In this document: positions 25,347 to 29,459 of the stretch, in pieces
Layout: each line of letters starts with the position of its first letter
Numbering within the stretch: the first letter of the stretch is position 1
DNA from: Bacteroidota bacterium
Lineage (GTDB): Bacteria > Bacteroidota > Ignavibacteria > SZUA-365
Length of the DNA: 64,000 nucleotides
Reading direction: 5' to 3'
Assembly (NCBI GenBank): GCA_003246455.1
Contig: QKAF01000009.1
Location: forward strand, 149,395 to 213,394
Notes under the pieces: generated by a model
The model's input: only the letters and a program-made list of their open reading frames with translations
Told to the model about the DNA's origin: nothing
Databases searched by the model: none
Position numbers and translations under genes: made by a program

Positions 25347-25802
25347 CTATCTCACGGCAAGCATGGTGCCGCGGCATGCGGGCGAACCGCAGCGGCAGGC
25401 AAATTTCCGCAGCGCTTCCTCATCATACTCCCCGTCGTAATCCAGGTGATAGTCGTACGTGAGCTCCTCCCCGGGAGCGATCGTGCGCAGCGCGATGATG
25501 AACACCCGGCCGTCGATCACTTCCGTTTCGCAGTTCGGGTCACAGCAGTGATTGAGATACTTCGCATCGCTGCCGCCGACCCCTCCGTCCAGCACGAGAT
25601 CGTCATCAACGGAGAAGAGCAGGACGTGCGGATGATCCGACGCGTCGTCGTCATAACGCCGGTCGGCCTCTTCCTGGGATATCCTCTCCCCGAGGTATTC
25701 GATGATGCGCGTCCCGCGACGGATGCGGCGCGCCGCGAACGCTCCGGTCCCGTGAACGGGAGAAGCGCGAACTTCAAGAAACGGTTTACGGTCACTGGCC
25801 AT
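25347..25802 (-). CDS. SET-domain protein with post-SET cysteine motif
   Basis: A 151-residue stand-alone SET domain, the lysine methyltransferase fold using S-adenosylmethionine. All key elements are visible: GTGAFAARRIRRGTRIIEYLGE (cofactor loop), YLNHCCDPNCET (the NHxxxPN knot motif), ELTYDYHLDY (second knot strand with the catalytic tyrosine), and the C-terminal post-SET motif CRCGSPACRG, which binds zinc with the knot cysteine. The ATG at 25802 begins the conserved part; upstream codons look non-coding. Bacterial SET proteins are found in chlamydiae and scattered lineages. The target is unknown; the lysine-rich protein at 10721-11308 is a possible one, a guess only. Confidence 0.88.
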   Translation of the reverse strand: MASDRKPFLEVRASPVHGTGAFAARRIRRGTRIIEYLGERISQEEADRRYDDDASDHPHVLLFSVDDDLVLDGGVGGSDAKYLNHCCDPNCETEVIDGRVFIIALRTIAPGEELTYDYHLDYDGEYDEEALRKFACRCGSPACRGTMLAVR

Positions 25803-25867
25803 GGCGGTCCGGGTTTGATTGAAACAGCACGAGAGACAAATGTATCCAATGTTTCCCGACAGTACAA

Positions 25868-25887
25868 CGCCCCGCGGATGCGGGGCG
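25868..25887 (-). terminator. Hairpin after the TldD-like fusion gene
   Basis: CGCCCCGC (25868-25875), loop GGAT, then the complement (25880-25887). It is nearly identical in stem to the terminator at 25298-25327. On the minus strand TTGTACTG follows, so termination may be weak. Confidence 0.5.
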
Positions 25888-25952
25888 CTGCAGTGATCAG
25901 TATTCACCGGGCGAGAGCCGCATCCCGTGCGGACACTCGCTTTCATCAGAGG

Positions 25953-28900
25953 TCACTTCATCAGGGGAGACGGGACGATCGGCGGTTTGGGCGTGATGGC
26001 CCGCTTCTCCTTTCGCACTTCCATCTCGTCGACCAGGATCGCGCGCGGGGCGATGACCGAAAGCGGGATACCGCCGTATACGCCGGCAAACGAACGGCTG
26101 AAACTGAGAATCGCGCCGAAGCCCGGAATGGGACTGTCCCCTTCCTCGAGACAATTCCAAGCCCTCCTGTCCGTGCTGGCGGTCAGTTTGCGCAACGCGC
26201 TCGCGCCGGGTTTGAGGATCTCGATCGACCGCATCGGGGATTCACTGCCGTCGGCCACGCTGACGCGATAGATGCGCACCGCGTCGCCGAGAGGCGTTGC
26301 GGCATTGTTCCCCATCTGGAACATCGCGAATGACGCGGAGAAATCGTCATCGACCGCGGGAGCGGAAACCGCGTTGGGGCGAATGCGGCGAACGATGTAC
26401 GCGAACGGCAGATCCTCTTCGGCTGCCCGCTCGAGAAGCAGCTGCTTCATGTCGGCAGCGGCGGGACCGTCAGACACCGTGATGTCGAAGACGCCCGGTG
26501 AAATACCGTCTCCGTCGCCGACTCCGATACTCCGGTGTCCGGTGGAACTGGGAAGTGACGGTGTCGGGATCCGATCGGAGATCAGGCTTGCAACGTTCCC
26601 TCCGTCAACGAGGAGTAGCCTGTCTTCGGGACGCACCCCTTCGGCATCGATGCTGAACGATCCGGCGAGACGCACGCCGTCGAATTCACCGATCCGCGGA
26701 GCGCTCGCCATCGACAGTTCCTTCGGCAGAATGCGTTTCCCGATTTTATCCTTGAGGTTGCGCTTCTGCATCTGCGCCCCCATCATCGCCATCGCTCCTT
26801 CCAGAACAGGCATGCGCGACGCGATCAGCCCTTCCTCTCCGAGATACAGTCGGGTGAACAGTTCCGGCACGGCCTGATCCTCGAAAAGCACGGGACCGGA
26901 ATACGAGCCGTCCATCGCCGTGGCGGTCCGCCGGGCGACGAGTTTCCCCGACATGCCCCGAATCTCCTCGGCGAGCGCCGCCGCGTCGGGGAGCTGATCC
27001 GGTGTGACCGCCTCATGCATCATGAATTCCATCAGCGGTTCCCCGTCCTCCGCCTGGGCACTGGCGGTGGCGGCAACCATGGCCAGCGTTTTCGGTACAG
27101 CAACGACGGTTCCTTCGTTGTTCACGAAATACACCATCATCCGGTGGAACGAGAACTGGACATTGGAGGCCTGGATGTCGGGATGCTCCTTGAACAGCGC
27201 GGAAAGGGAACGGACGCGCTCCTTCCAGGCGGCAACGTCGCAGGACGACGACGGCGCTGCTTCAACACTGACGACCGGATCCGCATCGGCGAAATCCTCG
27301 ACGTCCTTCATCTCTTCGGAAACCTGCTGCTGACGCAGCGCGGCGCGTTTCTTCTCGAGCTTTTCGGTCTCGGCCTTGTATTTCCGATCCGTACGCAGCC
27401 ACAGCTCGCGGCGGATGGCGTCGTAATTGTCCTCGATCGGCAGCGACGACCCGTAGTCGTCCATCGAGAAGCCGAAGTCCATGCTCACGTAATGTTCCTG
27501 CGTCTGCTTGTGATCCCCGACGAGGACCCGGATATCCTGCGCGCGATCGCGGCTCGTATCGAAACGCGTGATCGCTCCCGCCGTGGCCTGCATCGAGACG
27601 CTCTGCTTGTCCTTCACCTGGTAGCTGATGAAGAACGGAGCGCTGACGCCTTCAAGTGACAGGCGTTCGCTGTTCCGTTTCAGCTCGTCCTTCATTGCAC
27701 GAAGCAGAACCGGTTCTTCACCGCCGACGGAGGAACGGTCTCCCGTCGCCGCGGGATCTTTATCGGGCCGCGGCAGCAGGGGTGCGCGTTCCTGCGACTT
27801 GTCTTTCTTCTGCACCTCGATCTGCGAGATCAGCAGTGCGGGCGACACCGCGGAAACGGGAACGCCGCCGGATTCCGCGCCGCAGGTGCCGGTAAACACC
27901 GCGTTCGTTTTCCCGGCCTCCGTGATGTTCGAGAACATCACCAGCGGCGTGCCCACCAGATCCACCCCGCGGACGAGTTCGTCAGGCCGGCCGTCGAGAT
28001 AGATACGGTACACCTCTGTGGGCGTTACGTTGAAGGCATTGGGCGAGTAGCGGCCCGTCATCGTGAAACCTCCCATGACGGACTTGAAATACAGGCCGAA
28101 TTCCTTGTCCTGCTTCCGGCATTCTTCCCGCAGCATCTCGCGCAGTTCTTCGTCGCTGCGCGGCTCCGTGGTCGAAACGATGAGATTCGACTGCCGCGAT
28201 ACGGGCTGATACCCGGCCTGCGCGCGCCCGTGTCCGTTCGACGACGGGTGTTTTTCGAACGGCGTCCGGTTCATCAGGAAATCCTGCAGGATGCCGTTCT
28301 TGACGACGCTGACGCTCTGTCCGCGCACGCCTTCGTCATCATACACGTAGAAGCCGTTGAGGTCCTGTCCGTCGAGTTTCCGCCTCGTCGGATCGAACAC
28401 CACGCTCATGTGCGCGGGCAGGACGGACTGTCCTTCCTTCTTCTTGAAGGTCTGACCTTCGGTCTCCTTCTTCTGGCGATGGCCTTCCACACGGTGACCG
28501 AAGATCTCGTGGAAGAACACGCCGCCGGCTTCACCGGAAAGCAGGGCCGGACCGGTAAACGGCTCGACCACCGGCGCCTCGCGCATCGCGGTCAGCGTCG
28601 CGACCATTTCCCTGACATCCGCGGCGATCGACTCCTCCGAAGGGAGTCCGGCGATGTCGTAGGCGAAATAGCTGCGGTAGAGCGGCAGTTCCATACCGTC
28701 GGCGCACTTGATTTCCGCGCGGAGCATGACGCGCACCGCAGGACGGTTCTCCGCGACCACGCTCCCCTCGCTCGTGACGATGCGCTTGCGGTCAACCGAG
28801 AACGTCATCGAGGCTTCGCCCGTCGTGATGTGTTCCGATGAAAGGAATCCCTCGGAAATCCGCTTCAACCGGGCCTCCCATTCGGAGCGGTCAGGGAGGA

Positions 28901-29459
28901 GCGCCGCGGCGTCGAGCAGCGGATCGACATGCTCCTCCGCTTTGGTGATGCTCGCGAAATCGAATGACTTATCCTCCGCTTCCACTTTCACGGCCGTATT
29001 CGCGCGCACGGCCTGGTATTTTTTCGCGGCCTTCCGGTATTGCTGGTTGGTTGCATTCCACAGCACCATCCGTATCGCGGGTTCGTCGAACTCCAGCGGT
29101 ACGGAAGTGAACTGCGGGAATTCGAAATCGAAGGAATCCGACCCGCGGATTTCCCGGGTATTGTCCATCTCGTAGTCACCGACGCGCAGCTGAACAGTCA
29201 GGGTGCTGTGGTGATCGTCGTCGCTTTTCTTGACGGCCCCCAGGGACGCGGAAACAGAACTCGTGTAGCTGTCATCGATGCGATACGAAAGGAAATACGC
29301 CGCGGGATCCTGCGTTTTCAGCACGGACATCTCCCGCTGCAATTCCTTTTTCATGACGTCCAGAACCGGATCTTTCTGTGCGGCGGCCGGTATCGCGGCC
29401 AGAAAAAGAAGCACGGAAACAAACGGCAGGATAATCCTCTTACGATGCGTGGAGTACAT
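25953..29459 (-). CDS. Exported fusion of two TldD/PmbA-like halves, first half catalytic
   Basis: A 1168-residue exported protein with a signal peptide (about residues 1-28) followed by two homologous TldD-like halves. Half one (about 30-560) has the metalloprotease motif HEIFGHRVEGH (H317, E318, H322). It also has the downstream TCGAESGGVPVSAVSPAL, equivalent to the CG-rich segment that supplies the cysteine zinc ligand of TldD (C526 here). Half two (about 578-1168) begins with the same MKxELxRN...PFFISYQVKD pattern, but the HExxxH region reads FEDQAVPELFTRLYLGEE and the late cysteine is gone. It should be inactive, like TldE/PmbA. TldD/TldE act in the cytoplasm as a heterodimer trimming peptides, so an exported single-chain version is unusual. 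A promoter lies at 29589-29617. Confidence 0.88.
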   Translation of the reverse strand: MYSTHRKRIILPFVSVLLFLAAIPAAAQKDPVLDVMKKELQREMSVLKTQDPAAYFLSYRIDDSYTSSVSASLGAVKKSDDDHHSTLTVQLRVGDYEMDNTREIRGSDSFDFEFPQFTSVPLEFDEPAIRMVLWNATNQQYRKAAKKYQAVRANTAVKVEAEDKSFDFASITKAEEHVDPLLDAAALLPDRSEWEARLKRISEGFLSSEHITTGEASMTFSVDRKRIVTSEGSVVAENRPAVRVMLRAEIKCADGMELPLYRSYFAYDIAGLPSEESIAADVREMVATLTAMREAPVVEPFTGPALLSGEAGGVFFHEIFGHRVEGHRQKKETEGQTFKKKEGQSVLPAHMSVVFDPTRRKLDGQDLNGFYVYDDEGVRGQSVSVVKNGILQDFLMNRTPFEKHPSSNGHGRAQAGYQPVSRQSNLIVSTTEPRSDEELREMLREECRKQDKEFGLYFKSVMGGFTMTGRYSPNAFNVTPTEVYRIYLDGRPDELVRGVDLVGTPLVMFSNITEAGKTNAVFTGTCGAESGGVPVSAVSPALLISQIEVQKKDKSQERAPLLPRPDKDPAATGDRSSVGGEEPVLLRAMKDELKRNSERLSLEGVSAPFFISYQVKDKQSVSMQATAGAITRFDTSRDRAQDIRVLVGDHKQTQEHYVSMDFGFSMDDYGSSLPIEDNYDAIRRELWLRTDRKYKAETEKLEKKRAALRQQQVSEEMKDVEDFADADPVVSVEAAPSSSCDVAAWKERVRSLSALFKEHPDIQASNVQFSFHRMMVYFVNNEGTVVAVPKTLAMVAATASAQAEDGEPLMEFMMHEAVTPDQLPDAAALAEEIRGMSGKLVARRTATAMDGSYSGPVLFEDQAVPELFTRLYLGEEGLIASRMPVLEGAMAMMGAQMQKRNLKDKIGKRILPKELSMASAPRIGEFDGVRLAGSFSIDAEGVRPEDRLLLVDGGNVASLISDRIPTPSLPSSTGHRSIGVGDGDGISPGVFDITVSDGPAAADMKQLLLERAAEEDLPFAYIVRRIRPNAVSAPAVDDDFSASFAMFQMGNNAATPLGDAVRIYRVSVADGSESPMRSIEILKPGASALRKLTASTDRRAWNCLEEGDSPIPGFGAILSFSRSFAGVYGGIPLSVIAPRAILVDEMEVRKEKRAITPKPPIVPSPLMK

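Follow-up and report, generated by a model that had tools for sequence, protein, structure and literature searches.

A probable exported single-chain TldD/E-type zinc peptidase with an active-looking and a dead half, and its split relatives

The window, a 64,000-nucleotide stretch of a contig from a bacterium of the class Ignavibacteria, encodes a protein of two related halves that we judge to be, with good probability, a Sec-exported single-chain zinc peptidase of the TldD/E type, in which the dead second half would serve as a chamber wall and whose ancestors were encoded by two separate genes. The two-half exported architecture of the protein is confirmed as real rather than a product of chance by the profile comparisons, the structural model and the signal-peptide survey described below. 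The gene and its parts are as follows.

25953..29459, (-): whole fused gene, 1168 aa, a single open frame of 1168 codons
29379..29459, (-): putative signal peptide of the Sec / signal-peptidase-I type, aa 1-27, with the predicted cut between AAA and Q, recognised in the sequence
27762..29378, (-): half 1, TldD-like, aa 28-566 (PF19289; E. coli TldD 5nj5_A)
28494..28511, (-): zinc motif H317-E318-x-x-x-H322, invariant and aligned with TldD H262/E263/H267
27882..27884, (-): C526, the expected third metal ligand, aligned with TldD C454
27720..27761, (-): linker of 14 aa, aa 567-580, where split relatives have a stop codon, a spacer and a second signal peptide
25956..27719, (-): half 2, inactive TldD-fold lobe, aa 581-1168 (AlphaFold2 model, Foldseek)
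26844..26885, (-): dead-site counterpart of HExxxH, FEDQAVPELFTRLY, aa 859-872, from hhalign column pairing
26055..26090, (-): counterpart of the Cys segment, FAGVYGGIPLSV, aa 1124-1135, which lacks Cys, read from the sequence

Architecture of the fused protein

The TldD C-terminal domain PF19289 is detected in the window protein with 120.7 bits over the whole protein (cut-off 22) and its best stretch at residues 304-550, and half 1 matches the E. coli TldD chain 5nj5_A with an E-value of 9e-14. Half 1 carries HEIFGH at residue 317 and TCGAESGG at residue 525. In E. coli TldD the metal ligands and the catalytic glutamate are H262, E263, H267 and C454 (PMC5810440), with which H317, E318, H322 and C526 pair in an alignment of the sequences alone. 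HExxxH occurs in 105 of 105 half-1 segments collected versus 0 of 88 half-2 segments (with a few segments contributed more than once by one genome). None of the 16 aligned fused proteins deviates at the zinc-motif and Cys residues, and the C526 position is also invariant in 12 aligned half-1 sequences. Half 1 thus appears to carry a metal site made up of H317, E318, H322 and C526, and would be expected to bind zinc and to act as a hydrolase. The clamp tether of TldD, a salt bridge between Lys456 and Glu270/Asp272, is not preserved in the window protein, which has A528, E325 and H327; since K456 is replaced by A528 and D272 by H327, the geometry of the active-site cleft may differ. The protein scores 91.6 bits with the NCBIfam TldD equivalog model (cut-off 635) and has no match to the N-terminal domain PF01523, for which the sole match in its own genome lies at C128. 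By PF19289 search it is the only TldD of its own genome with an intact HExxxH.

Profile-profile comparison with hhalign aligns the two halves with a probability of 100 and an E-value of 5.4e-79 and places T869 and R870 of half 2 in the columns of H317 and E318. PF19289 is found in half 2 itself above the cut-off (24.5 bits) and in 29 of the 29 half-2 relatives scanned. An AlphaFold2 model of half 2, computed with 29 relatives as input, reached a pLDDT of 87.1 and a pTM of 0.89. Searched against the PDB with Foldseek, it returned 16 matches with E-values below 1e-17, every one of them TldD, TldE or PmbA; the best is chain 5njb_B, the inactive subunit from E. coli (E 1.7e-23, TM 0.71 by target), and the first match outside these proteins follows at an E-value of 0.045. 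Half 2 therefore has what is expected of a TldE-like subunit, namely a TldD/E fold devoid of metal ligands. A model of the whole fused chain, for which an alignment of fused proteins only was used (A5), gave the same 16 matches at a pLDDT of 77.6 and a pTM of 0.78, with low confidence around the Cys segment (residues 524-556). A mixed alignment of fused and split proteins (A3) was dropped for modelling, as it stacked all halves onto half 1.

The predicted signal peptide of the window protein reads MYSTHRKRIILPFVSVLLFLAAIPAAA, followed by Q. Across the family, with every member that has a usable start taken in, a hydrophobic N-terminal stretch of at least 1.9 on the Kyte-Doolittle scale was found in 71 split half-1, 60 split half-2 and 16 fused proteins, compared with values of at most 1.45 in 13 cytoplasmic TldD/TldE controls, a comparison that somewhat favours the family because the best of several ATG codons was taken for its members and the first ATG for most controls. 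The family signal peptides look typical on reading by eye, and no lipobox was seen in the N-termini of family members. Export of the window protein via a Sec-type signal peptide is thus a prediction, and it gains support from the occurrence of such a signal in essentially all relatives. The initial annotation had described one exported chain of two TldD-type halves, the first active-looking and the second dead. Its coordinates, its strand and both motif pairs that it quoted are exact; the signal peptide, PF19289 in both halves, the hhalign result and the HExxxH counts bear out the description, and the TldD fold that it expected of half 2 is the one predicted.

Partnership of the two halves and proposed function

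The family is present in 53 of the 197 genomes of the class, 48 of which encode the two halves as separate genes and two as a fusion (the window and G086), while in two more half 1 is truncated where the contig ends (G113, G222) and in one the gene is broken into several frames (G128). In 12 of the 48 genomes with separate genes the pair is unlinked, with about 150 kb between the halves in G283 and separate contigs in the other cases, and both are retained. A second set of 16 genomes was searched via their loci, 13 of them picked for lack of an adjacent half 2: 15 hold both halves, non-adjacent in 12, and the remaining one (L053) sits at a contig end. Half-1 genes from genomes that lack an adjacent half 2 had been candidates for solo enzymes and were discarded as such, as searching the whole genomes located half 2 at another place in almost every case. 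Pairwise codon comparison of near relatives gave dN values of 0.20-0.41 for half 1 and 0.27-0.32 for half 2 against saturated dS (>1.5), which indicates purifying selection of similar strength on both. The near-constant co-occurrence, also of unlinked halves, together with this selection makes a strong, though computational, case for the dead half being needed.

The harmlessness of TldD/E in the cell is ascribed to the enclosure of its active site in a two-subunit shell. In the exported protein, half 1 would be the cutting half and half 2 would form the other wall of a closed chamber that admits only unfolded peptide ends to the active site, and these ends would be cut into short pieces outside the cytoplasm. 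By analogy with TldD/E we infer the dimer and chamber geometry, the peptide substrates and the catalysis, and the protein may have a general peptide-clearing role in the periplasm. No conserved neighbour family was found in the loci of the relatives, where the commonest upstream Pfam family, histidine phosphatase, occurs in 7 of 49 loci; this lack of conserved neighbours favours general peptide clearing over one dedicated substrate. In the window, a gene for a SET-domain protein (25347-25946, (-)) begins 6 bases past the stop codon of the protease gene on the same strand, a pairing that is absent among the neighbour families of the relatives' loci.

A protease dedicated to the maturation of a single exported peptide, whether RiPP-like or some other secreted precursor, is the alternative that fares best, even if we consider it improbable: TldD/E, often encoded outside the gene cluster, matures several RiPPs (PMC10885120), but the exported pair is spread across much of Bacteroidota without a shared neighbour family. 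We give slightly less weight to a TldD-fold enzyme that acts on small molecules as an amidase or N-deacetylase. Such an activity would agree with the changed clamp-tethering residues, and TldD-like N-deacetylases are named in the title of a review cited by PMC10885120; the window protein nonetheless keeps the complete ligand set of the peptidase and has a paired dead lobe resembling TldD/E, and biosynthetic neighbours are not conserved. With regard to assays of a zinc-dependent peptidase, E. coli TldD/E is inhibited by o-phenanthroline and actinonin and not by EDTA at up to 100 mM (PMC5810440), so that a chelator control needs care.

Our search of a library of open-access papers turned up no description of TldD/E in exported or fused form. 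If the proposal is correct, the family would represent a previously undescribed extracytoplasmic chambered peptidase system and, if widespread in Bacteroidota, suggest that peptides are handled outside the cytoplasm by a route that has not been studied.

Origin of the inactive half

The E. coli TldD/TldE system (MEROPS M103; PDB 5NJ5) resembles the window protein in fold, as judged from the model for half 2 and from sequence for half 1, in the combination of HExxxH and a distant Cys in the active half, in the ligand-less dead partner and in the constant presence of that partner. It differs in being cytoplasmic and composed of two chains of about 450-480 residues each, whereas the halves of the window protein measure about 540-590 residues and are joined in one exported chain, and the dead partner of the latter is apparently of separate origin. 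In order to place half 2, a tree was built of half 1, half 2, cytoplasmic TldD, TldE and TldD with a Tat signal, in which each group occupies one side of a branch and the two halves together are split from the other three groups with a support of 100. Forcing half 2 and TldE into one clade, as common descent with TldE apart from TldD would require, costs 46 log-likelihood units and is rejected (AU p 0.007), in quick trees that contain only five TldE sequences on branches flagged as long; for these reasons we regard a separate origin from TldE as likely rather than proven. The profile of half 1 scores full-length half 2 at roughly 115-300 bits and E. coli TldE at 14 bits, that of half 2 scores TldE at 11 bits, and among NCBIfam models half-2 sequences match TldD rather than PmbA in 17 versus 4 cases.

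Half 2 is thus likely to be the sister of half 1, a dead duplicate of it and not TldE (PmbA), with which it shares the role of an inactive TldD-fold partner. The initial annotation had taken the dead half for a TldE. Under that reading a true TldD-TldE pair would have been exported and fused, and half 2 does lack the ligands as TldE does and finds its best structural matches among TldE chains, which score slightly ahead of TldD. We nevertheless think it rather unlikely given the joint placement of the two halves away from TldE, the rejection of the forced clade, the weak TldE profile scores compared with those between the halves and the preference for the TldD model. TldE is itself supposed to be a copy of TldD that lost its centre (PMC5810440), and the same step, loss of the site in a TldD copy, seems to have been repeated in the exported lineage. 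On balance we therefore lean towards the TldD fold having gained a dead twin on two occasions, in the cytoplasm as TldE and independently in an exported lineage widespread in Bacteroidota, where the two were later fused at least five times. A second independent pair of active and dead subunits, retained as a pair almost throughout and fused repeatedly, would, if true, argue for the dead lobe as a functional necessity of the TldD fold.

TldD-type proteins with an export signal are also found beside TldE without one (G049, G004 and the window's own genome at C128), but they carry a twin-arginine rather than a Sec signal and the motif HESVGH, lost at C128, and they form a separate branch. At C128 (L032, 667-3596) the window's own genome holds a second TldD/TldE-like pair, in which the TldD-like protein has a Tat signal (MQRRTFLKSTAAL; PF10518 over cut-off) and no HExxxH, and its TldE-like neighbour has no obvious signal peptide. 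In G049 a run of five TldD/TldE genes (C12, 137499-144837; L134, L141, L147, L148, L149) comprises three TldD with twin-arginine signals (KRRDF) and HESVGH and two signal-less TldE, which could be carried out as passengers of the Tat substrate.

Split relatives and repeated fusion

A scan of one genome per species yielded at least 518 candidate stretches, the best 80 of which were fetched; among these 80, relatives occur in Bacteroidales and other Bacteroidota, Ignavibacteria, Kapabacteria, Bryobacterales and one Desulfobulbaceae record. Most encode half 1 followed by half 2 as adjacent separate genes, each with its own signal peptide, and such split pairs (L034 and L059 in Bacteroidota, L103 in the Desulfobulbaceae record) are direct homologues of the window protein in the ancestral, two-gene form. 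The two halves of the window protein are both closest to the same lineage, and its nearest relatives are all split: in G152, G155, G156 and G157 of its taxonomic family and in G159 of its order, half 1 ends at a stop codon and is followed by a short spacer and another signal peptide, and the gene is absent from three genomes of its genus. At the junction, L034 reads PLLPRPDQDSSTPQTRERTY, a stop codon and then MRIFISITAVILFGVLTADSVAQQQEPLVIRAMKDEL, while the window reads PLLPRPDKDPAATGDRSSVGGEEPVLLRAMKDEL, with neither stop codon, spacer nor second signal peptide. Long frames of 1203-1262 residues in G155, G156, G159, G166 and G190 had been candidates for fusions and proved to be split, as each contains stops and a further signal peptide.

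Fusion is also found outside the window. In a tree of 89 half-1 sequences that includes 17 from fused proteins, it arose at least five times, in the window, in L004, in a group of ten Bacteroidales, in a group of four Dysgonamonadaceae and in one Tannerella record, and placing all fused proteins in one clade is rejected (AU p 1e-5). Fusion is favoured over fission because the halves are duplicates that already have separate signals when split, and it would be the last step because the halves of the relatives are already exported as separate genes. The computation thus shows that export and the dead partner predate fusion and that the ancestral form is a two-gene pair; the initial proposal, by which TldD and TldE as active and inactive subunits had been fused and moved out of the cytoplasm, is not supported. 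From an ancestral pair with a signal peptide on each subunit, a recent in-frame change in the window organism would have eliminated the stop codon of half 1 along with the signal peptide of half 2 and thereby joined obligate partners 1:1. The fused form would offer biochemistry a natural single-chain version at this ratio. An assembly artefact concealing two genes is very improbable even though the fusion is known in the window's exact lineage from one assembly only and its family members are split. The junction is internal to a contig of 214 kb, the reading frame runs on intact through it, and it carries a 14-aa linker of its own with precisely the signal peptide missing; in 15 other fused proteins, too, the linker contains no inner signal peptide.

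Two further arrangements were observed in the family. One member is split over three frames (L015, L028, L029; G128:C67), representing either a pseudogene or a sequencing error. Butyricimonas sp. (G205, L101) has ten matches, apparently five half-1/half-2 pairs, one of which lies in a single frame of 1120 aa.
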